A stretch of 49,616 bases of DNA from Candidatus Latescibacterota bacterium (GCA_022821275.1 JAJEDY010000064.1:1-49616); one strand, 5' to 3'. Positions 12,663 to 45,544 are shown, counted from the stretch's first letter. Notes: generated by a model from the sequence alone, not told the origin. Numbers and translations are program-made.

Positions 12663-13577
12663 TCACAGCCCCACGCCAAACGCCCTCTCAAATTCCCCCC
12701 ACAGATCAAGATCGACATCGGCAGTGGCATCGGTGAGCACCTCGTCGAGTTCGCGGGGAGAAGCTGGTCCTACCAGAAGCATGCCATTGCCCTTTAAGGG
12801 CGCCGCAAGGCAAAACTGCAGAGCAAAGCGGCGAATACTAATCCCGCGCGCATTGCACCACTCCCACATCGCAACAGCGCGATCACCCTGTCCCGGATAC
12901 CGGCGACCAGACAACTCGACATCGGGCCTGGGACCTGCCAGAACGCCCATACCCTGCACACTCGCCAGAATAACCCCCACATCGTGCTCAAGCGCGAGAG
13001 GAATCGTCGTCTGTGCAGCCGTCTGATTCAGCAGCGTATAATCGAGAAACGTAATAACAATATCGCAAACCCCCGTCTCAATCGCATAGCGGTGAAAATC
13101 GTGCGAACGGCAGCCAACACCCGTATAACCGATCAGACCCTCGTCTCTCATCTTCAAAAGCTCATCCGAAGCAAATCCCGGTGAATAAGCCTCTTCAATA
13201 TCCCGCGGGTCGTGGATAAGCACCGCATCGATATAATCCGTCTTGAGTTGTCTCAGACTATTCTCAACCGTCCACCGAATCGACTTCGCCGAAAAATCGT
13301 GCCGCCGATCCCGATGGGTACCCGCCTTAGTCTGCAAATAAACCTTCTCCCGGTACCCCCCTTGAAGCGCGAGCCCCACGCGCCGCTCGCTCTCGCCCCC
13401 ACCATAAGCAGCAGACGTATCGATAAAATTAATCCCCTGATCAATCGCCTCCCGCACAGTCGCAATCCCCTCATCATCAGAGACCCGCTGTGGACTACCG
13501 AGAAAAGCGCAGCCAAGACCAATCGCTTTGGGTTTAAGTTCAGTGCGACCAAGACGTCGCGTTTCGAGTTCGGGCAT
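12663..13577 (-). CDS. Aldo/keto reductase
   Basis: This 304-residue NAD(P)H-dependent oxidoreductase has a TIM-barrel fold. The catalytic tetrad is visible as Asp and Tyr in INFIDTSAAYGGGESE, Lys in LQTKAG and His in VLIHDPRD. It opens METRRLGRTELK-like (MPELETRRLGRTELKPKAIG) as usual for this family. The C-terminal cofactor segment LLVGPASPRELDE is also typical. AAGGAG lies just before the ATG at 13577. It follows a pectate-lyase-like gene on the same strand and may reduce sugar-derived aldehydes; the substrate is unknown. Confidence 0.92.
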   Translation of the reverse strand: MPELETRRLGRTELKPKAIGLGCAFLGSPQRVSDDEGIATVREAIDQGINFIDTSAAYGGGESERRVGLALQGGYREKVYLQTKAGTHRDRRHDFSAKSIRWTVENSLRQLKTDYIDAVLIHDPRDIEEAYSPGFASDELLKMRDEGLIGYTGVGCRSHDFHRYAIETGVCDIVITFLDYTLLNQTAAQTTIPLALEHDVGVILASVQGMGVLAGPRPDVELSGRRYPGQGDRAVAMWEWCNARGISIRRFALQFCLAAPLKGNGMLLVGPASPRELDEVLTDATADVDLDLWGEFERAFGVGL

Positions 13578-13604: not shown

Positions 13605-13636
13605 CAAATCTGCGTCCATCTGCGTTCATCTGCGGA
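13605..13636. repeat. CATCTGCG-type dispersed repeat at the 3' end of the lyase gene
   Basis: Three copies of a unit close to CATCTGCG occur in a row. The repeat contains the TGA stop of the gene at 13626. Related units lie at 41735-41765, 41881-41905 and 41932-41962. Confidence 0.55.
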
Positions 13637-15914: not shown

Positions 15915-16811
15915 ATGACCGAGCAAGTCATCTATCGCAACCGCAAAACAGACGAAATGATCTCTGAACCACTCATATTGCCCCGCGTTCAATATGCAGT
16001 TGCGCGATCTCGCGTGGCGATATTTATTTACAACATCCTCCTGAACACATACCCATTTTGCTGGCTACTGGGCAAATGGATGGACCTATCGGGATCGCAA
16101 AAAAAAATCCAACCATTCATAAAAAAATACGACATCGACCTGGACGAAATCGAATTGCCTCTGGACCAATACAAAAATCTAAACGCCTTTTTCTCGCGCA
16201 AACTCAAACCCGACGCACGCCCCTTTATCGCCGACCCCCACATCTTCTGTTCACCCGCCGATGGAAAAATACTCGCATATCCCAAACTGGATGAACAAAC
16301 CCGTTTACCCGTCAAAGGATCCCATGTCGATATTGCACACCTCCTATCATCAAGAGAATCCGCAATCCCTTACAGGAATGGTGCTGCACTCGTCATTCGA
16401 TTGGCCCCGTCTGACTACCACCGCTACCACTTTCCCGTATCCGGCATCGCCACAGCATCTGCTGAAATTTTTGGACGATACTATCTCGTCAACCCCATTG
16501 CCCTCGACGTAAAACCCGACTTATTTGCCCACAACAAACGCGAAATAACATACCTCGAAACCGAACACTTTGGCCGCATCATGATCATGGAAGTAGCGGG
16601 CTGGGGCGTGGGGCGCATCGTCCAAACATACCAGCCGGGCACTGTCGAACGAGGGCAGGAAAAGGGCTACTTCCAATTTGGAGGATCTACTCTGGTACTC
16701 TTATTTGAACCCGGGCGCATTATCTTTGACAACGACCTCACCCGCGACACACAAGCAGGCATCGAAGTCCAGGTCCTCACAGGATCACAACTGGGCGTAC
16801 AGGACGTATAA
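15915..16811 (+). CDS. psd: Phosphatidylserine decarboxylase proenzyme
   Basis: This 298-residue enzyme makes phosphatidylethanolamine from phosphatidylserine at the membrane. It is made as a proenzyme that cleaves itself before the Ser of GGST (residue 258, in QFGGSTLVLLFEPG) to form the pyruvoyl group. Also visible are NAFFSRKLKPDARP, SPADGKI and the YHRYHFPVSG active-site His region. The layout fits the PSD-B/type II group. The ATG at 15915 gives the natural N-terminus MTEQVIYRNR. No pssA is in the window. Confidence 0.95.
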   Translation: MTEQVIYRNRKTDEMISEPLILPRVQYAVARSRVAIFIYNILLNTYPFCWLLGKWMDLSGSQKKIQPFIKKYDIDLDEIELPLDQYKNLNAFFSRKLKPDARPFIADPHIFCSPADGKILAYPKLDEQTRLPVKGSHVDIAHLLSSRESAIPYRNGAALVIRLAPSDYHRYHFPVSGIATASAEIFGRYYLVNPIALDVKPDLFAHNKREITYLETEHFGRIMIMEVAGWGVGRIVQTYQPGTVERGQEKGYFQFGGSTLVLLFEPGRIIFDNDLTRDTQAGIEVQVLTGSQLGVQDV

Positions 16812-16836
16812 AACCTTTAACCTGAAAACATCACCT

Positions 16837-18177
16837 ATGCCAACAATAAACCTCATCACTCTGGGCTGCCCCAAAAACACCGTCGATTCCGAGCGCATGC
16901 ACCACCTTCTCAAGCGCAATGGATACGACCTCTCGGACCGCGCGGAAGACGCCGACATCATTGTCGTCAACACCTGCGGATTCATTGAACCAGCCAAAGA
17001 AGAATCAATCGCAACCGTGATGGACGCCGCAGAATACAAAAAAAACGGACAATGTCGCGGCGTCATCGTCACGGGCTGCCTGGCCGAGCGATACCGAACA
17101 GAATTGGAAACCGAACTCGTCGAAGCGGACATGATCGTGGGCCTTGCCGGCGAACGCGACATCGTCGCACACTGCGATCATTTATTAGGCACATCGCGCA
17201 TACACACCATTCGAGATGCAGAGGCGCGTCATCTACTCACCCCAAAACACTGGGCGTACTTGCGAATCTCGGACGGATGCGACAGAACATGTGCATTTTG
17301 CGCCATCCCGAGCTTTCGCGGAAAAAACAAAAGCGAAAACCTGGACCGCCTCATCGCTGAAGCCTATCGCATGGTCGGCAACGGCGTGCGCGAAATCGCC
17401 CTCATCGCCCAGGACACCATGCGATATGGCGCAGACCTGTACGGCAAACCCCGGCTGATAGACCTGCTCAAAGAACTCATCCAAATCGAGAAACTCGATT
17501 GGGTGCGGATGTTATACGCCTATCCAACTGGTTGGCGCAATGAACTAATCGACCTTCTGGCAACCGAAGAAAAATTGTGCGCCTACATCGACCTGCCCAT
17601 CCAGCACGCATCAGATCCCATACTAAAAACCATGAACCGCGGCACCACAAAAGCGGGCATACGAAAACTTATCCACACCTTGCGCGAGCGCATACCAAAC
17701 TTAACCATCCGATCATCAATCATCACCGGATTTCCCGGCGAACGCGATGAGCACTTTGCAGAACTCATGGACTTTGTCGATGAAATGCAATTCAACCGCC
17801 TCGTCGGATTCACATATTCACACGAAGAAGGCACGCAGGCGGGCGCATTACAAGACGACGTACCCGAAGACATCAAGCGCGAACGATTGAACGACCTCAT
17901 GGCATTGCAAGCGCAAATATCGGGCGAATTGAACGCCGCACACGTGGGAAGCACCTTCAAAGTACTCGTAGATGAAGCCTCTGACGACCCGGCATATCAC
18001 TACATCGGGCGCACGCGCATGGACGCCCCAGAAATCGACGGCGCCGTATTTTTCACAGGTCCTGCAAACATCGGCGACTTTGTCGAAGTCGAAATCACCG
18101 ACGCAACCGAACACGACCTCATCGGACATGTCGTCAAAACCAACGCCCTATTGGAAATCGCGCCCATAAAAAACTGA
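16837..18177 (+). CDS. rimO: Ribosomal protein S12 methylthiotransferase RimO
   Basis: This 446-residue radical-SAM enzyme methylthiolates an Asp of ribosomal protein S12. The N-terminal MTTase domain has three cluster cysteines, in LGCPKNTVDSE, NTCGFIEPAKEES and TGCLAERY. The radical-SAM motif CDRTCAFC lies near residue 148 with CAIPSFRGK after it. A C-terminal TRAM domain ends the protein (about residues 375-440). RimO rather than MiaB is indicated by GCPKNTVDSE and IPSFRGKNKSE. The ATG at 16837 matches family starts; a longer frame from 16678 overlaps psd. Confidence 0.96.
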   Translation: MPTINLITLGCPKNTVDSERMHHLLKRNGYDLSDRAEDADIIVVNTCGFIEPAKEESIATVMDAAEYKKNGQCRGVIVTGCLAERYRTELETELVEADMIVGLAGERDIVAHCDHLLGTSRIHTIRDAEARHLLTPKHWAYLRISDGCDRTCAFCAIPSFRGKNKSENLDRLIAEAYRMVGNGVREIALIAQDTMRYGADLYGKPRLIDLLKELIQIEKLDWVRMLYAYPTGWRNELIDLLATEEKLCAYIDLPIQHASDPILKTMNRGTTKAGIRKLIHTLRERIPNLTIRSSIITGFPGERDEHFAELMDFVDEMQFNRLVGFTYSHEEGTQAGALQDDVPEDIKRERLNDLMALQAQISGELNAAHVGSTFKVLVDEASDDPAYHYIGRTRMDAPEIDGAVFFTGPANIGDFVEVEITDATEHDLIGHVVKTNALLEIAPIKN

Positions 18178-25810: not shown

Positions 25811-25848
25811 AAAAAAACGAAAAAAGCCCAATCCTCTAATGGATTGAG
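25811..25848 (-). terminator. Intrinsic terminator of the ZTP riboswitch
   Basis: Arms GCTCAATCC and GGATTGGGC with a short loop are followed on the minus strand by a T-rich run. The hairpin starts inside the 3' end of the aptamer (CGCCTGGGC), so ligand binding should prevent its formation and turn the gene on. Confidence 0.85.
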
Positions 25849-25923
25849 CCCAGGCGATCGACCCTTGAATTTTAGTTCTAACGCTCCCCTCCGGTTATTT
25901 CCGGATATTCGCCAGTTGCGTCA
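25848..25923 (-). ncRNA. ZTP (pfl) riboswitch aptamer
   Basis: The minus strand shows all conserved blocks of the pfl motif. P1 is TGACGC/GCGTTA and the conserved ACTGGCGAAT follows. P2 is TCCGG/CCGGA, then GGGGAGC, a linker, and the 3' block CGCCTGGGC that forms the pseudoknot. It lies between an AAA ATPase gene and the AICAR transformylase gene, a known target of ZTP riboswitches. Confidence 0.9.
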
Positions 25924-25976
25924 GATACTATTGATAAAACCAATATAACGGGAGACTACATCTATGTCAACAGCCA

Positions 25977-36812: not shown

Positions 36813-37889
36813 TTAAAACGCCTGACTCAAATTCTTTCGATGCAGAACGAACCAGATTACAATCGGAGCGCCAATCAAAGACGTCACCGCATTCAGCGGC
36901 AAAACAAATTGACTGCCCGGCAGATGGGCAATCAGATCGGATAGCAGTGCCAGCGTCGCCCCCAGGCAGGTGACTGCCGGCATAAGCACGCGGTGATCCG
37001 ACGTATGCAATAGACTGCGGCAAAGATGTGGCACAGCCAGACCCAAAAACGCAATCGGACCGCAAAAAGCAGTCGTCGCACCCGCCAGAATCGACGCACT
37101 GATCAAAACCCACAAGCGAATGCGCTTGACATTCAAGCCCATACTGCGCGCATAATTTTCCCCCAGCAACAGCGCATTGAGCGGTTTAATACACAAAAAC
37201 GCCAGCAAAAGACCCACAAAAATAGCAGAAATAAGCACGGGCATCTGTCGCCATGTCACACTGCCAAAACTGCCAAAAGTCCACAAAATATACGACTGTA
37301 TCTGCTCGGGAACGCTAAAATAAATCAAAATACTGACAAAAGCCCCGGTCGCGTACCCAAACATCAGACCCAAAATCAACAACGTCATCACATTCTGTAC
37401 ACTGCGAGACACCAGCAACACGCACCCCAGCACGGCGGCAGCACCCATAATAGCCGCAACCGCCAAACTCAAATCCCCCATCAAGCCCAACCCCGCGATA
37501 AGCACACTGCCCACCGAACCCACCGTCAGCACCACAATCGCAACGCCGAGACTCGCGCCTGCGCTGATACCCAGCACAAAAGGATCTGCCAGCGGATTGC
37601 GAAAAAGCGTCTGCATCTGCAACCCACTCACAGAAAGCGCTGCACCCGCCAGCACAGCAGTAATCGCCTTCGGCAGTCGAATCGTATGAACAATAATCGC
37701 CCATGCCGCAGAAGACACTTCTCCACCCGTAAGAATGCCAAATAAGGCCGCCAATGGAATATGAACTGATCCCAGCGACAAACTCAAACCGAACGCCATC
37801 AGAAGCAGGAAAAATAACCCCAGCATAATAACCGCATGCCGCGGACCCTCCCGCGCTTCATCCTCGTATTGAGCCTCCATTCCGATCAT
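36813..37889 (-). CDS. btuC: Cobalamin ABC transporter permease BtuC (FecCD family)
   Basis: This 358-residue permease has about ten transmembrane helices. Family motifs IRLPKAITAVLAGAALSVSG, FRNPLADPFVLGISAGASLG and the coupling-helix GPIAFLGLAVPHL are present. The family also transports iron-siderophores and heme, but this gene ends the riboswitch-controlled B12 locus, adjoins its ATPase by four bases and no other substrate genes are seen, so B12 is the likely cargo. Confidence 0.9.
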   Translation of the reverse strand: MIGMEAQYEDEAREGPRHAVIMLGLFFLLLMAFGLSLSLGSVHIPLAALFGILTGGEVSSAAWAIIVHTIRLPKAITAVLAGAALSVSGLQMQTLFRNPLADPFVLGISAGASLGVAIVVLTVGSVGSVLIAGLGLMGDLSLAVAAIMGAAAVLGCVLLVSRSVQNVMTLLILGLMFGYATGAFVSILIYFSVPEQIQSYILWTFGSFGSVTWRQMPVLISAIFVGLLLAFLCIKPLNALLLGENYARSMGLNVKRIRLWVLISASILAGATTAFCGPIAFLGLAVPHLCRSLLHTSDHRVLMPAVTCLGATLALLSDLIAHLPGSQFVLPLNAVTSLIGAPIVIWFVLHRKNLSQAF

Positions 37890-37893
37890 TCTC

Positions 37894-38889
37894 TCATCCC
37901 CTTAGTCCCGCAATCAAATCGCAAATAGAATCGTATTCTCGAACCACGCCACCGTGCTCAACACACCAGGCATCCCCTTCTCGAATATCGACACACCACT
38001 CAGCCCCCACATCTCTCACTTGAAACCCGGCCCTCTCCAGTGCGCGCTTTGTCCAATAAGCGCGTCGTCCTTCCCCAGAAACAGCAACTGTAGAGCAGCC
38101 ACGTTGGGCATTGAGCTTAAACGCACCCGTATCCGCATCAAAACGCACGCCATCACTTTGAAACGCGCCTTCAAATGCACCATTGAGAATTAAATCCTCG
38201 GGCGCACCAGTCTGTAACGCGCCCTCAAACGGCAAAAGAAAGATGCGGTCTGCACAGCGCAGTGCCAGATCCAAGTCATGCGTTGAAAGCAGAATCGCCT
38301 TATCCGTAGAATGTGCCAGATCCTGCAACAAAGCCATAATTTCAGCGCGACGGGGCAGATCGAGAAACGCCGTGGGTTCATCGAGAATCATAAGAACTGG
38401 CTCCTGCGCCAGCGCGCGTGCAATCATAACCTTTTGACGCTCGCCATCGCTGAGTTCGGCCACATTGCGATATGCCAAATCCTCAGCGCGGGCTGCCCGA
38501 ATAGCCCATGAAACAACCCGTTCATCTTCCTCTGTAAAACTCCCGATCCAATCCGTATGGGGATATCGCCCCAGACCGACCAGATCGCGCACAGCCATAA
38601 TACCCACACTAATGCGATCCGTAAGCACCACGCTAATCACCTGGGCAACCTCTATAGCAGACATATCCGCGATATCCTGACCCATAAGATAAACCTGCCC
38701 ATCGAGCGGCGGCTGCATCCCCACAAGCGTGCGAATAAGCGTAGATTTCCCCGCGCCATTGGGACCGAGCAAACACACAAACTCACCGCGATGGAGCGAC
38801 ACATCTATATCGCGCGCCACAACGCGAGACGGACGACGACCGTATTTATACCCCACAGCGAGATTTTGTGTTTTAAGAATCGCCAACAT
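37894..38889 (-). CDS. btuD: Cobalamin ABC transporter ATPase BtuD with C-terminal extension
   Basis: The 331-residue ATPase has Walker A LLGPNGAGKSTLIR, signature ELSDGERQKVMIARAL, Walker B VLMILDEPTAFLD and His in LSTHDLDLA. After about residue 240 comes an extra 85-90-residue domain (RRAYWTKRALERAGFQVRD, WCVEHGGVVREY) not found in E. coli BtuD; it may be regulatory. The start follows hicA by 14 bases with AGAGGTGC upstream. Confidence 0.88.
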   Translation of the reverse strand: MLAILKTQNLAVGYKYGRRPSRVVARDIDVSLHRGEFVCLLGPNGAGKSTLIRTLVGMQPPLDGQVYLMGQDIADMSAIEVAQVISVVLTDRISVGIMAVRDLVGLGRYPHTDWIGSFTEEDERVVSWAIRAARAEDLAYRNVAELSDGERQKVMIARALAQEPVLMILDEPTAFLDLPRRAEIMALLQDLAHSTDKAILLSTHDLDLALRCADRIFLLPFEGALQTGAPEDLILNGAFEGAFQSDGVRFDADTGAFKLNAQRGCSTVAVSGEGRRAYWTKRALERAGFQVRDVGAEWCVDIREGDAWCVEHGGVVREYDSICDLIAGLRG

Positions 38890-38903
38890 GCACCTCTGTC
38901 AAA

Positions 38904-39155
38904 TCATTTCAAAAGCCCAATACGCTCAAGATCGGTTTCACCCCACTGAACTTGTCGCTCAATGATTGATTTGAGCGTACCGACAGCAAAGGTCTGATTC
39001 ATATTATGGAGATGAATAGTCGTCATTCTCCCATCTGGGTGAACAAAAAAACGGGTCGCGCCTTTTCTTCTGTATTCACGAAACCCGTCTCTTTTTAGTG
39101 CCCGTATCAATCTACGTGCCGTCAACGAACGAAGCCTACTGTAATCAATCGCCAT
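38904..39155 (-). CDS. hicA: HicA-type toxin
   Basis: This 83-residue protein has the HicA dsRBD-like fold: LRSLTARRLIRALKRDGF, REYRRKGATRFFVHP and the catalytic-His region TTIHLHNMNQTFAVGTLKSI. HicA cleaves mRNA when not bound by HicB. It is one base after hicB and lies inside the B12 locus, between the cbiB remnant and btuD. Confidence 0.88.
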   Translation of the reverse strand: MAIDYSRLRSLTARRLIRALKRDGFREYRRKGATRFFVHPDGRMTTIHLHNMNQTFAVGTLKSIIERQVQWGETDLERIGLLK

Positions 39156-39156
39156 A

Positions 39157-39426
39157 TTAGATAGCTACAGTGACCAGAGGAACATCGCTGACCTGAATCT
39201 GTGATGATGGCTCAGAAGGGATCTCTTCTCCATTCTCAAGCAGATAAGCAACAAGAAGATCAACAGCATTTTCTAAATTCTCTAACGCCTCTTTCTCTGT
39301 ATATCCCCAACTCGCAGCCCCTCTATGCTCCAACGCGGGAATATAAGCTCTCCAGACCGCTTTAGCATCTGGATCATCGGGCCACTTGTCTTTCTCCAAG
39401 ACAGCCTTAAATAAATATGTTTTCAT
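39157..39426 (-). CDS. hicB: HicB-type antitoxin
   Basis: This 89-residue protein has the HicB RNase-H-like core: AYIPALEHRGAASWGYTEKEALENL, then LLVAYLLENGEEIPSEP. The order hicB-hicA is the reverse of the common hicA-hicB. AGGAGG is upstream. The module may have been inserted into the B12 operon, or kept there with the decayed genes. Confidence 0.87.
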   Translation of the reverse strand: MKTYLFKAVLEKDKWPDDPDAKAVWRAYIPALEHRGAASWGYTEKEALENLENAVDLLVAYLLENGEEIPSEPSSQIQVSDVPLVTVAI

Positions 39427-39471
39427 ACATATCCTCCTCAGAATAAGTACGAAAAAAATAGGGGTATGACC

Positions 39472-39872
39472 TCAGAAAGTCAATAAAACCGCCAGACCTG
39501 TCGCGAGCAAACAGGTGACAATCACAAAAACACACATACGGCGCATATCCCCGGGCTGACCGCCTTCGGGATCATCCCCATCGCCCAACCAAACATCTGT
39601 AACCTGCGTTCCCCCCTGCCAAACAGGACCGACCAATCGCCTCTGCAAAGCGCCTGCAGCTGTAGCTTCGCTCCACCCGGAATTTGGTCCTGGAACAAGC
39701 GCGTGTTGCCGCCACCCGATAAGCAGAGCCTTGTGTGCAGAACATCCGGGCATAAAAAACGCCACCAGCGCCATCTCCAAATACGTCAAACGCGCGGGCA
39801 TAAAATTGAGCACATCGTCCAGCCGTGCCCCACACCAGCCAAAACAGCGGTATTGCGGCGTCCCTGATGCGG
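39472..39872 (-). pseudogene. cbiB: 3' remnant of cbiB (adenosylcobinamide-phosphate synthase)
   Basis: The minus frame reads QYRCFGWCGARLDDVLNFMP, then ARLTYLEMALVAF, PGPNSGWSEATAAGALQRRL and VWLGDGDDPEGGQPGDMRR, ending in a hydrophobic helix. That is the C-terminal third of CbiB/CobD. The frame has no start codon suited to a full protein and is closed by TGA at about 39945-39943; the other two-thirds of about 300 residues are missing. The remnant is joined at about 39872 to sequence like the start of CbiZ. Confidence 0.7.
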
Positions 39873-39950
39873 CACCAGCAATTCCGCGATCAGAAAACGA
39901 CCATCGCGTTTCAAATCGTAATATTCGTGCTGATCGATAAACTCATCCAT
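39873..39950 (-). pseudogene. 5' remnant of a CbiZ-like gene
   Basis: The frame from the ATG at 39950, two bases after the cobO stop, reads MDEFIDQHEYYDLKRDGRFL and IAELLVPHQ. That resembles the N-terminus of some adenosylcobinamide amidohydrolases (CbiZ). Homology breaks at about 39873, where the cbiB frame begins. The match is short and from memory, so this is tentative. It would mean one deletion removed most of cbiZ and the front of cbiB. Confidence 0.4.
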
Positions 39951-39951
39951 C

Positions 39952-40503
39952 TCAAAAATCAATCCCGGGTTGGGCAACAATACCCTGATCACTAAACGGA
40001 TGCTTAATCTCGCGCATCTCGGTCACCATATCGGCAAAATCAACCAGCGCGTCTGGCGCATCTCGCCCCGTAATAATCACATGCAACATCTCGGGCTTGT
40101 GCTCCCGCAGCCAATCCACCACCTCTGTTGCATCCAACCAGCCAAAAGCCATCAAATACGTAAACTCATCCAGAATAAACAGATCGTAATCCCCACTCGC
40201 AATCCGCTCCTGCGCCACTTCCCAACCGCGCAATGCCCGAGCCTGTGTCTCATCGATATCCTTACTCGTCCACGTCCACCCATCGCCCGTACCAATCCAA
40301 TCGATCTCCATGCGCCTGGCCGCGCGAATCTCGCCAAAATTGGCATTCTCGTGCTTCAAAAACTGAATCACACCCACGCGCATCTTGCGCCCCCATGCGC
40401 GGGTCATCACCCCCAGCGCGGCTGTGGTCTTTCCCTTGCCATCCCCGGTATTGACCATCACCAGCCCCTTTTTCACATGCCGTTTGCGTTGTTTGGTACT
40501 CAT
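39952..40503 (-). CDS. cobO: Cob(I)yrinic acid a,c-diamide adenosyltransferase (CobO/CobA type)
   Basis: This 183-residue enzyme adds the adenosyl group from ATP to cobinamides and cobalamins. P-loop [15 protein letters not shown] lies near residue 17. Also visible are [17 protein letters not shown], and the [15 protein letters not shown] and [19 protein letters not shown] blocks. GAGAGG precedes the ATG at 40503, 13 bases after the propeller gene. In this locus it would adenosylate imported corrinoids. Confidence 0.95.
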
Positions 40504-40516
40504 AGCAACCTCTCTC

Positions 40517-41770
40517 TTATTCACCTTCAAATTCCGAAACAAAAATCAGAAAATCGGGAAAATCAACCGAACCATTGCCATCCAAATCGAACATAGCATC
40601 ACTCTCTGATTTCCCAAACGCGGAAGCAAAAGCCAGAAAATCGCTAAAATCAACCACACAATCGCCATTAAAATCAGCCACACTGCCCACAAACGCAATA
40701 CTCGCAGGCAACAGACCCGTACTGATCGGACCAGCCACAAGCTGATCCGTCTTCACGTCATAAACCTTCACACCAGTAGATGTCGGATCGACAAAACTCC
40801 CGCCATCCAAAACGTACAACCGCCCCCCAAACACCCCCAAACTCGGAACAAATCCGCCTGAAAGACCATCCAAAGGTGACGAAACAGACTGCATCCCCAA
40901 ACCGAACCGTTTGACCACATTGACAAAACTCGCATCTAAAACAACGACATACCCCTCATCATCGGAAACCATCGCCAGAGAACTCAAATTACCACCCAAA
41001 GCCATCTCACCCAGAACAACGCCATCGCTCCTCAAACTTGCCAGATCAATCACCTCAATCCCACCATCCGTCAAATCATCAAATGTATTGACCGTGCTCA
41101 AAAACCACTTATTCCCTCGCTGCACTGCGCCCGCGGGATTCTTACCCGCCATCACAATCCCCTGCACGCCCGCTGTATTTGCATCTATATCCACCACCTG
41201 ATCCGTCATCACATCGACAACCGCGATCACCGAAACATCCGTCGGCACAAACCCATTATCTCGATCCAGCCGTTGACACGCGGCAAACAAATAATTGTCG
41301 TACAACGCGAGCTGAGATACCTCGGGCAAACCATCTGCATCCGCAAATACCGCTAAATCTATCTCTCCCAATAAATCCCCTGTAACGGGATTTACAATTA
41401 GCAATTGCGTCTGCTCATACCGCGAAATATACGCTTTCTCCTCACTGACAAAAGCCATATCGTGCGGATTTGAACCATTGCCCGTCGAATACTGCGTCAA
41501 AGGCGTCTTCAGGTCACTGCGATCCAAAACAATCACATTATCCTGTCCCAAACGATTGATAACATACACCTTATCCCGATACGTCCGCACCGCCGCATCC
41601 GAATGAATAGTCAAATGATCATTTGTTGCCGTATTTGTGATGAGATCCAAACTCGAAAAACTACCACTGCTATAATCCGTCGTCGTAATAACCGCTTGAT
41701 TTGCTGATATGCTAAAAGAAAAAAACAAAAGCATCCACAGATGCACGCAGATATACACAGATAAATTCAT
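40517..41770 (-). CDS. Secreted BtuG-like beta-propeller with C-terminal dockerin-like repeats
   Basis: The 417-residue protein has a signal peptide (about 24 residues) and a YncE-like propeller ([54 protein letters not shown]). The final 65 residues hold two EF-hand/dockerin-like units ([40 protein letters not shown]). In Bacteroidota, BtuG is a surface propeller that binds B12 and sits on BtuB. This gene lies between a BtuB-like receptor and cobO under a B12 riboswitch, so a BtuG-like role is inferred. There is no lipobox. The start has GGAGAG. Confidence 0.8.
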
Positions 41771-41962
41771 GAGACTCTCCTCTCTTAAAAAAAACCGTTT
41801 GAATCAGGATTTTCAGGATTAAAGGATGAACAGGATACCTCTCTTCCACCACCCTCAATTCACACTTCTTAGCCCCCACCTCTCATCTGCGCCCATCTGC
41901 GAAAAACGCTCAAATTATTCGCGTTTTTTTCTGCGGATCATCTACTTAATCTGCATTTACAC
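41735..41962. repeat. Dispersed CATCTGCG-type repeats flanking the propeller gene
   Basis: Three stretches (41735-41765, 41881-41905, 41932-41962) contain units related to ATCTGCG/ATCTGTG. The first codes for the N-terminus of the propeller protein, and the last includes the stop of the receptor gene. Between them lies a GGATTTTCAGGATT-like unit at 41808. The gap 41771-41945 has no gene. Confidence 0.55.
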
Positions 41963-44141
41963 TCACAAAAACCGCGCGCCCTGGCAGCGGATAACCCCAG
42001 GTATCGGCGATTTGCGCCCCGGTTAAATTTTTAACCTCCAATCCAATGTGAAGCCGCATCCTCGTATCCACTTTCACGCCCGCATTGTGAACATGCCGCG
42101 AAATCAGTGGACGTCGATTCGCCCGGTCGAGAAAATTGCCATCTTCAAACGCATAGTCGTAAAACACAGTACAGCGTCCCAAACGCATCGTCGCACGCAC
42201 AAACAGCGCGTGTGGCGGGCGATTGGGCAAAATATTGCCAGTCAAATGCGGAATCTCGGACTTATCGATAGCCTTTTGATACGTGTAATTACCCGACAAA
42301 TCGACCCGAGAACCAAAGCGCCTTTGCGCGGTCATTTCAAACCCATACACACGCGCTTTGCCAATATTAACCGGACGCGACGTAGCCTGTGACGTGTGAA
42401 CAAACTGAATCAAATCCTCATAGCGATGGTCAAAAAACGCGCCTTCCAAAGTGGTCGTCCCATCTGCATAACGCAGACCCGCATCCCAGGTCAGACCATA
42501 CTCGGGCCTGAGATTGACATTGCCGACCACACCGCCGCGATCACCAAAAAGTTCGTAAAAAGAAGGCACGCGAAATACGCGCCCCGCATTGGCCTTAAAC
42601 ATCATAAAAGACGCCAGATCTAACCGCACACCCGAACGCAGACTGGTGAGACCGCGCGCATTGGCTGAATCGGGTGCGAGCGGCGAAAAATTAAAGGGAT
42701 TGGCACCGGTAAACGAACTGTGTATCCGCCGTTGCTCAGCGCCAAAAGACCAGATTCCAATCTCGCCCGGCAGTGAAATATCCAGACCCAGGCGCGAAGA
42801 AAAAATCCACCGCTGACTATCGAACAAACTGGCAACAGACCGGATGCGCGTCGTAGGCAAATAAGTCTCCCTGTGCAACCCAATCGCAGCGGCGATATCA
42901 CAGCGCGAAAACAGAACCGTTTGCAAACGGCTCTGCCACCCATAAGTGCGCGTGAGATAATCATTATCCTGGCGACCAATCCCAATTTCGCCATCCAGAT
43001 CGCGGAACCGCTCCCTGACATGCGTGACATAAAGCGATTGCCGCGTATTGATACCACGGAAAAAGGCGCGATCCTCATAAGCGACTTCCGTCATCGTCTG
43101 AAAAGCATCCAAATGTGCATTCTGTGACTGATTATTGCTAATACCTGGCATCCCCTGATATTTCCAGTACGCGGTCTCGTGGACAGATAAAATTCTATCC
43201 TCCCCAAAAGTGCGACGCCACTTACCCAAAATATTAAAAGATCGATGATCGTTATTCTGCCGCCTGCTCCAAACATCGTCATCGGCATTGTATTCTGTAC
43301 CATTATCATCGAGAAATCCAAAATCGTTATCGCTATGTGCATAATCGGCCACAACGAGAAACTCCGACTGACCAAATCCACCCGCGAACACACCGCTCAG
43401 CAACCGCGTATCAAAAGCACCCCACGATCCGCGAACCCCGTGAAACCATCGTCTTTGCGTCTGTCGCGTACGCACATGCACCGTGCCACCCAATCCATTG
43501 CCGCCAGCACCGGCACCGCGATACACCTCAATCTGCCCGACGTGAGCCAAAGGCAAATTGCTGAGATCTACCCCCCCACCAAAAGCGGTATTGAGCAAAA
43601 TGCCATCGAGATACACCTCAACCTGATCGGCTGATGAACCGCGCAGCGAAAGCGTGCTAAAAGTACCCAACCCACCCAGGCGCTTGACGTGTACCCCCGT
43701 AGCCTCAGCCAATACATCTGGCAGCGTCGTTTCTCTACCCTCAAAACTCGCACGCGTAATAACCGTCGCATACGCCGGATTCCTGTGAATATCACTGGCA
43801 CCTATCGGATCGGCAATCACCGAGAACTCATCCAGAGGAAGCATCCTGTGAGACAGCGCAATAAAAACCTCAGCCGTTTGGGTCACGCGAACCGTGCGTT
43901 GGACCACATCATAAGCCACATGTGTCAGGACAAGCGTATAAGAACCGGACATCAGATTGGAAAAAGCAAAGCGCCCATCCCCATCCGTCTGCGTCACAAA
44001 ATCCGTATTGAGAACGCGAACACGCACACTCTCGATGGGCATTCGGGTCTCTGCATCGGCAACGCGACCGACAATCTGCGCTGCCCAAAGCGGCGTATTC
44101 GCGCAGAGAATTAGCACAATTATAAAACGCATCATGTTCAT
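41946..44141 (-). CDS. TonB-dependent receptor, BtuB-like
   Basis: This 731-residue outer-membrane receptor has a signal peptide, then a regulatory domain (IVGRVADAETRMPIESVRVR). The plug contains RLGGLGTFSTLSLRGSSADQ and GQIEVYRGAGAGGNGLGG, and the barrel ends RAVFVSVNAD. The plug is typical of BtuB-like receptors. It starts three bases after the BtuF-like gene, both under the cobalamin riboswitch. Its stop lies within a dispersed repeat. B12 specificity follows from the context. Confidence 0.9.
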   Translation of the reverse strand: MNMMRFIIVLILCANTPLWAAQIVGRVADAETRMPIESVRVRVLNTDFVTQTDGDGRFAFSNLMSGSYTLVLTHVAYDVVQRTVRVTQTAEVFIALSHRMLPLDEFSVIADPIGASDIHRNPAYATVITRASFEGRETTLPDVLAEATGVHVKRLGGLGTFSTLSLRGSSADQVEVYLDGILLNTAFGGGVDLSNLPLAHVGQIEVYRGAGAGGNGLGGTVHVRTRQTQRRWFHGVRGSWGAFDTRLLSGVFAGGFGQSEFLVVADYAHSDNDFGFLDDNGTEYNADDDVWSRRQNNDHRSFNILGKWRRTFGEDRILSVHETAYWKYQGMPGISNNQSQNAHLDAFQTMTEVAYEDRAFFRGINTRQSLYVTHVRERFRDLDGEIGIGRQDNDYLTRTYGWQSRLQTVLFSRCDIAAAIGLHRETYLPTTRIRSVASLFDSQRWIFSSRLGLDISLPGEIGIWSFGAEQRRIHSSFTGANPFNFSPLAPDSANARGLTSLRSGVRLDLASFMMFKANAGRVFRVPSFYELFGDRGGVVGNVNLRPEYGLTWDAGLRYADGTTTLEGAFFDHRYEDLIQFVHTSQATSRPVNIGKARVYGFEMTAQRRFGSRVDLSGNYTYQKAIDKSEIPHLTGNILPNRPPHALFVRATMRLGRCTVFYDYAFEDGNFLDRANRRPLISRHVHNAGVKVDTRMRLHIGLEVKNLTGAQIADTWGYPLPGRAVFVSVNAD

Positions 44142-44144
44142 AAG

Positions 44145-45248
44145 CTATGGATCGAGCTTTCGATAGTACTTGAGTTCATGATCTAACAACAAATCGGGAT
44201 ATAAAATTTTAATAATATCAGCTAACACAACATCCGGCTCAATAAGCCCCGTCTCCCAATAATCATTGCCCCCATGCGCATTGAGGCGCGCATTGGCATT
44301 GAAAACATTCCCCTTCTTAAACGCTGTAAATCCTTTGTACCGCTCATCCTCGGCGACAACATCGTCTCGAGAGTACCACTCATTTCTCATCGTAATCCAG
44401 CAATCCGCATCGTGCGCCTTTTCGTAAACCGTTTCAAAATCGAGTGCCAAACTCTGTTGTGAATCATCTTCTCCCCACAAATAATTTGCACCCGCATCCC
44501 TGAGCAATTGCGCGGCATAAGTCTTACCACCAGACATAAACCAGGTCCCGCGCCAGAGAGACCCCACAAAAACAGAAGGACGCTTATCCGCTGGTAAATC
44601 CTGGACCAGACCTCTACGCGCCTCATACCTCGCAACAATGCTATCAAACTGGGCTGATGCCAGTTCTTCTTTCCCCAAAAAAGCACCAACGAATTTGATC
44701 CACTCCACGCGCCCCAGCAACGAAGGTTCCGCATAAGCGGCATTCACCACAACGGGCACACCCGCTTCACGAAGCGCGACAGAGGCATTGTCTGTCATAA
44801 CGAGATCGGGTTGGAGCATCAGAACTCTTTCCAAATCAATAGCCCTATCCCGCCCAACTTCTGTCAACTTACCCGCCGCAAAACGCTGGTTGACAGCCTC
44901 TGAACTGACGTATTTGATATTATCGATCCCAACCAGGCTATGCACCTCGCCGAGCTTTTCGATATGTGGTAAATGCGTCGTAGATGTCGTAATCAAAGTT
45001 CGCACGGGAATTTCTATTCTCGGAACACCCTCATAGCCATCGGGCGGCTCGTACCCGCGCTGCACCAGGATATACTGAATCTTTTCCCGCGATCCCCCCC
45101 CGGGCGTGAACACCGTTACAACCTTATACGCATCGAAATAATCAACGCGAAAACCCTGTGCATATTGCAAAGACAGTTGCGCCTGAACAGGTATGGTCCA
45201 AACCCCGATACAACATATCAACTGCATCCATATTCTTAGATTCAACAC
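44145..45248 (-). CDS. Periplasmic cobalamin-binding protein, BtuF-like
   Basis: The protein of about 367 residues has a signal peptide ending VQAQ and the class III binding-protein fold: RIEIPVRTLITTSTTHLPHI, LGEVHSLVGIDNIKYVSSEA, QPDLVMTD, and GKTYAAQLLRDAGANYLWGE. It feeds BtuCD. The start is uncertain: GTG at 45248, TTG at 45245 (best spaced from GAGG) or ATG at 45227. The start comes directly after the riboswitch terminator T-run, so translation initiates only on read-through transcripts. Confidence 0.88.
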   Translation of the reverse strand: MLNLRIWMQLICCIGVWTIPVQAQLSLQYAQGFRVDYFDAYKVVTVFTPGGGSREKIQYILVQRGYEPPDGYEGVPRIEIPVRTLITTSTTHLPHIEKLGEVHSLVGIDNIKYVSSEAVNQRFAAGKLTEVGRDRAIDLERVLMLQPDLVMTDNASVALREAGVPVVVNAAYAEPSLLGRVEWIKFVGAFLGKEELASAQFDSIVARYEARRGLVQDLPADKRPSVFVGSLWRGTWFMSGGKTYAAQLLRDAGANYLWGEDDSQQSLALDFETVYEKAHDADCWITMRNEWYSRDDVVAEDERYKGFTAFKKGNVFNANARLNAHGGNDYWETGLIEPDVVLADIIKILYPDLLLDHELKYYRKLDP

Positions 45249-45259
45249 ACACCTCGCAC

Positions 45260-45293
45260 AAAAAAACCCCTGACTTCCTCGTAGAAATCAGGG
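45260..45293 (-). terminator. Intrinsic terminator of the cobalamin riboswitch
   Basis: Arms CCCTGATTTC and GAAGTCAGGG (with a one-base bulge) are followed on the minus strand by seven T. It lies between the aptamer and the BtuF-like start. Confidence 0.85.
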
Positions 45294-45374
45294 ACATAGC
45301 TAAACGCGACAAAACCACATAGCGCACGCATTATCTCACCTTTTTCCCAATCCACGAGGAAATCAATAAGGCCT

Positions 45375-45524
45375 GAGATTCGGGCAGGTCTTCTGGCTTC
45401 TGGGTCTCGTGCGTCTCGCGCCTTCCCGATTTTACCAGTGGCATAATGCGAGAAACATCCCCAGTTACAGCGGCGGGACCGCAACGGAATTTCACCGTTT
45501 TCCCTATACTGCAACCCGAATCTG
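45375..45524 (-). ncRNA. Cobalamin (B12) riboswitch aptamer
   Basis: The minus strand has P1 CAGATTCGGG/CCCGAATCT. It then has the blocks GGGAAAACGGTGAAATTCCG, GCGGTCCCGCCGCTGTAACT, GCCACTGGTAAAATCGGGAA and the 3' B12-box region AGAAGACCTGCC, in canonical order. About 75 bases of leader (45300-45374) separate it from the terminator and form the expression platform. Binding of adenosylcobalamin should promote termination and switch the uptake operon off. Confidence 0.95.
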
Positions 45525-45544
45525 AATATTTTATGACATTTTAT

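Follow-up and report, generated by a model that had tools for sequence, protein, structure and literature searches.

The closest described relatives of the system reported here are the BtuB-BtuG pairs of Bacteroides (BtuB1G1, BtuB2G2, and BtuB3G3), in which a beta-propeller gene lies beside BtuB under a cobalamin riboswitch and the propeller, a lid on the receptor, is held by an N-terminal lipid anchor. In Wexler et al. 2018 (PMC6143338), BtuG is reported to be exclusive to Bacteroidetes, and the lids are discussed as a response to competition in the gut. Here we describe a locus outside Bacteroidota, in a stretch of 49,616 nucleotides from Candidatus Latescibacterota bacterium (GCA_022821275.1 JAJEDY010000064.1:1-49616, hereafter the window), coding for a BtuG-like propeller that lacks a lipobox and ends in a dockerin-like pair of EF hands. 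Three other systems bear comparison: the Bacteroides XusAB system, a TonB-type siderophore receptor with a surface propeller lipoprotein as its lid; the type I dockerins and the NCBI "GC-type dockerin domain-anchored" proteins, which share tandem loop-helix EF units, Ca2+ ligand spacing, and a position at the terminus of secreted proteins; and the type A sorting domain (TIGR04183) of the type IX secretion system (T9SS) with its PorU sortase, a domain that takes the place of the dockerin-like tail in orthologous propellers from sister lineages. Most Latescibacterota lids carry this T9SS C-terminal domain, but the window lid has neither it nor a lipid anchor.

We propose that the operon encodes riboswitch-controlled B12 uptake of the BtuB-BtuG type: the propeller would be exported by way of its signal peptide and, on the outer side of the outer membrane, would capture B12 as the lid of a BtuB-like receptor. 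The C-terminal pair of putative Ca2+-binding, dockerin-type EF loops would dock the lid to the cell surface, and the same module would act as a general surface-retention module on many secreted proteins of three related families of the phylum (f1 to f3), a lineage without a recognizable PorU. BtuF and BtuCD would then bring the corrinoid in, and CobO would adenosylate it. We assign this model as a whole a probability of about 0.6. In the literature searched we found no report joining BtuG with a dockerin, or type IX secretion with Latescibacter, and the new part of the finding is the anchor of the lid.

The propeller gene (40517..41770, on the minus strand like all other features of the locus) codes for 417 amino acids. 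Residues 25 to 361 (40688..41698) form a beta-propeller, modeled with a predicted local distance difference test score (pLDDT) mostly above 90 (mean for the protein, 88.3, with two helices in the tail). In a Foldseek search of the PDB with this model, the top 13 matches are all BtuG, a seven-bladed propeller (E values 5e-17 to 5e-15), and XusB is next (3e-12). A profile of 29 orthologues against all PDB sequences gives nine BtuG-type entries at the top, followed by NirF (9e-4), the alignment to BtuG spanning only part of the propeller. DUF5074, which we take to be the Pfam family of BtuG, matches 7 of the 29 orthologues and not the window propeller; it is insensitive as a phylum-wide marker (matches in 7 of 64 genomes) and was dropped.

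The tail (residues 364 to 417, 40520..40681) contains EF loop 1 from D366 to D377 (40640..40675) and EF loop 2 from D395 to D406 (40553..40588), with modeled helices at residues 375 to 384 and 404 to 413. All side-chain Ca2+ ligand positions (1, 3, 5, 9, and 12) are kept within the last 52 residues, as D366-N368-D370-D374-D377 and D395-D397-N399-D403-D406, and these are the two loop-helix repeats that characterize type I dockerins. The match to Dockerin_1 (PF00404) is borderline, at 22.9 bits in the genome search and 19.0 by hmmscan against a cut-off of 22.9; 10 of the 29 aligned orthologues match the family. There is no lipobox behind the signal peptide in the sequence, and a domain search gave no match to the T9SS C-terminal domain (TIGR04183/PF18962). 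The BtuG-like identity and the ending in two EF-hand/dockerin-like units without a lipobox, both claimed in an earlier sequence-only reading of the window, are borne out by these results. We also note that the signal peptides of the window propeller and of that at locus L158 start differently from the MRWLLVVLFFATDVL type of their relatives, and that the window gene has a ATCTGCGTNCATCTGYGG repeat within its first codons (41735-41752, minus strand), found again at 13608-13635 and 41885-41902 (4 matches against 0.03 expected); it looks as if the repeat had been swapped in for the start of the gene.

The propeller is present in 53 of 64 Latescibacterota genomes, and a BtuB-type receptor gene lies directly upstream at 35 of 40 loci of the phylum. 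Among 80 GTDB loci with orthologues, from Latescibacterota, Eisenbacteria, Krumholzibacteriota, and proteobacterial metagenome-assembled genomes (MAGs), 76 have a BtuB-type receptor near the propeller (68 directly upstream), and three of the remaining four end within 300 nucleotides. A cobalamin riboswitch is found at 25 of the 27 loci tested, including ones titled Krumholzibacteriota, Desulfosarcinaceae, Deferrisomatales, and Gammaproteobacteria; the other two end inside the receptor gene. The gene is thus placed as BtuG genes are, beside btuB under a cobalamin riboswitch, and neighboring genomes do not set it apart from B12 genes, an outcome that the sequence-only reading had named as one that would overturn it. 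On this evidence the BtuG-type lid is much more widespread than Bacteroidetes. One group of propellers beside a receptor gene (L189, L213, L215, L216, and L220) has a long N-terminal extension behind a polyglycine, lipobox-like start (GCGGGGG...).

Orthologous propellers share a last strand, TGLPPxxIAFVG, behind which there are three alternative endings. The dockerin-like EF pair ends the propellers of families f1, f2, and f3. A YPNPFN...LLK tail, which matches T9SS and FlgD-Ig families, is present in f4, f6, f7, and f9 and, outside the phylum, in Krumholzibacteriota and part of Eisenbacteria. Tailless propellers, mostly with a lipobox, occur in f10, as second copies in f7, in part of Eisenbacteria, and in most of the proteobacterial MAGs. 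The propeller tree requires one or two changes for the dockerin tail, and a single clade of dockerin-tailed propellers is not rejected (approximately unbiased test, p-AU 0.44). A second, unrelated family, a protein with an HExxH motif, has the dockerin-like tail in f1 to f3 and a FlgD-Ig-type tail in f4. The dockerin-like tail probably holds the lid on the outer face of the cell, because the other two anchors belong to types that are known to bring proteins to that face. The two ends of a propeller meet at its closing blade, so that, whichever end bears the anchor, the lid can be tethered at roughly the same hinge. The earlier suggestion that the B12-capturing protein is held in a different manner is supported.

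Alternatively, BtuB itself may hold the lid, the EF pair being a Ca2+-stabilized cap or an adhesive module with no anchoring duty. In Bacteroides, BtuB2 and BtuG2 share an extensive interface (3463 A2, about 40 hydrogen bonds; PMC10404256), and the module is also found inside proteins. However, orthologues in two families have a T9SS tail at exactly the position of the module, and other forms of the lid have a T9SS tail or, if tailless, mostly a lipobox; we regard this explanation as unlikely, if one to be kept in mind.

The dockerin-like module is not a device of the B12 locus. It has about 55 matches in the source genome, where about 50 proteins, of many kinds, carry it, and a B12-specific propeller-dockerin fusion, as the sequence-only reading had it, is therefore rejected. 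In closed reading frames, 23 of 42 modules lie no more than 12 amino acids from the stop codon, and the others directly follow a signal peptide or are internal; 96 of 105 loops have ligand residues at all five Ca2+ positions. The module scores near or below curated dockerin cut-offs and, unlike the GC-type proteins, has no terminal GC; the window module differs from type I dockerins further in sitting on a vitamin-uptake lid, with no many-cohesin scaffoldin found. Since the module changes place, the pattern argues for a retention or docking unit rather than a C-terminal export signal or a B12-specific device. That it is instead an export signal replacing the T9SS C-terminal domain would fit its position at the place of that domain in two protein families and the retention of SprA in the lineage, but a C-terminal T9SS signal would fail directly behind a signal peptide, where the module often stands, and the Ca2+ ligands are kept; we consider this quite improbable.

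The distribution of the module is mirrored in the T9SS. The median number of dockerin modules per genome is 25 in f1 to f3 versus 4 in f4 and 2 in f5 to f10, and that of T9SS tails is 13 versus 57 and 22, respectively. The PorU sortase, called by NF033707 over its cut-off, is found in none of the 22 f1-f3 genomes versus 37 of 42 others, and the five others without it are 57 to 87% complete. The dockerin-like tail differs from TIGR04183 in fold and sequence, and the lineage seems to have exchanged one mode of surface holding for another, an exchange that loss of PorU may have driven. The genomes are related, and these counts are therefore a correlation only and no test of independent events. 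The wider reading, that the lineage replaced T9SS/PorU attachment by Ca2+-dependent dockerin-like docking across its surface proteins, the BtuG-type lid included, and with a receptor other than a classical cellulosomal scaffold, is one that we put forward tentatively, at rather less than even odds.

Several observations weigh against the model. SprA is kept in f1 to f3, with 6 to 22 T9SS-tailed proteins per genome, so the T9SS is not gone from these families. A PorU2-like C25 protein, about 1,900 amino acids long where the contig holds the whole gene, is present in 20 of the 22 genomes. Families f1 to f3 may be one clade, and the absence of PorU and the spread of the tail may be one event. The propeller is only about 17% identical to BtuG and is therefore a distant branch. 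The top structural match of the receptor is XusA, a siderophore receptor, slightly ahead of BtuB. Finally, the search for a partner of the tail yielded few cohesins, with two clear Pfam matches over the cut-off in the source genome and none over it in the congeneric genomes G030 and G036 (93 to 95% complete, in 420 to 470 contigs), which carry 26 and 21 dockerin-like modules.

The receptor (41946..44141) is a BtuB-like TonB-dependent receptor by its domain and PDB matches, with an N-terminal CarboxypepD_reg domain and both plug and barrel. In Foldseek its model matches XusA first (4e-35), BtuB at 3e-33, and mostly BtuB thereafter; among PDB sequences, BtuB or Bacteroides B12 receptors account for 10 of the 11 best matches. 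Its TIGR01779 score is 129.6 bits (cut-off 599.7). With XusB the next propeller after BtuG, the pair could be taken for a siderophore system like XusAB; yet the propeller is closer to BtuG in its matches, by some four orders of magnitude, the locus is regulated as a B12 locus where XusAB differs in ligand and regulation, the riboswitch recurs at 25 of 27 loci, and the locus contains CobO and BtuF/C/D and, in relatives, CbiZ and CbiB. A siderophore function is highly improbable.

The few cohesins bear on a classical form of docking, in which the tail binds a cohesin on T9SS-exported proteins. Two adjoining and very long proteins on contig C69 of the source genome (G000:C69:279-8499, locus L090) end in a dockerin-like module, a cohesin over the Pfam cut-off, and a T9SS sorting domain, like an anchoring scaffoldin, and could, by this architecture, be surface anchors for dockerin-tailed proteins. 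Against this, each has a single cohesin to serve some 50 modules, no cohesin is detected in the two congeners, and f4, which has few dockerin tails, also has cohesins of this sort. Classical cellulosome-type docking was accordingly lowered as a main explanation, and we find it doubtful. The sequence-only reading had offered Ca2+-dependent docking or an unknown cohesin as examples of a different anchoring; the different anchoring is supported, whereas a canonical cohesin as partner is in doubt. Docking of the lid to the surface by the EF pair is our preferred reading.

The operon extends over 36813-45534 and, in order of transcription, comprises the riboswitch, a terminator, and genes for BtuF, the receptor, the propeller, CobO, a CbiZ/CbiB remnant, a HicB/HicA-like pair, BtuD, and BtuC. 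The cobalamin aptamer (RF00174, 45366..45534) scores 114.6 bits (E value 4.2e-28, full model 1-189) against a gathering score of 31.5 bits, and is followed by a hairpin (45266..45295) and TTTTTT. Chance alone would give 0.6 such hairpins in the stretch searched, and the reading as an intrinsic terminator rests on its place behind the aptamer. The BtuF-like periplasmic binding protein (44145..45248, GTG start) matches PF01497 (Peripla_BP_2; E value 2.8e-25). The CobO/BtuR corrinoid adenosyltransferase (39952..40503) matches PF02572 (CobA_CobO_BtuR; E value 6e-62) and is over the cut-offs of PRK05986 and TIGR00708; its reading frame spans 39952-40542, and the ATG at 40503, behind a purine-rich site, is the better start. 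The BtuD-like ATP-binding cassette (ABC) ATPase (37894..38889) and the BtuC-like permease (36813..37889; FecCD, E value 2.3e-75) have as top NCBIfam matches PRK09536, a corrinoid ABC transporter ATPase, and BtuC, each below its cut-off. This same-strand run agrees with the sequence-only reading, whose gene list is correct but lacks the remnant and the HicB/HicA-like pair, which lie between CobO and BtuD.

The remnant (39472..39950) joins the first CbiZ codons to about the last 110 CbiB codons (PF03186 positions 198-277 only), the product of an internal deletion that removed most of cbiZ and cbiB; both are whole at the same place in a relative (G037; L070:6451-8555). The HicB-like/HicA-like pair lies at 38905-39426, between the remnant and BtuD. 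In the B12 locus of G037, CbiB and BtuD are separated by a Cache-domain protein that ends in a T9SS-type tail (L070:4806-6389, minus strand). Another locus (L086) has two cobalamin riboswitches (13160-13383 and 16800-16996), one before the receptor gene and the other before a BtuD/BtuC-like set. Elsewhere in the window is a ZMP/ZTP riboswitch (25841-25929, minus strand; 57.9 bits).

BtuG-type lids are thus riboswitch linked in Latescibacterota, Krumholzibacteriota, and proteobacterial MAGs and stand beside BtuB-type receptors in Eisenbacteria, and propeller-type B12 capture would be an older or more widespread strategy rather than a gut trait. With this set of anchors, the dockerin-like module is tied to the lack of PorU, a known attachment enzyme. 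The same lid held in three ways is a natural experiment on the role of the dockerin-like module outside cellulosomes.

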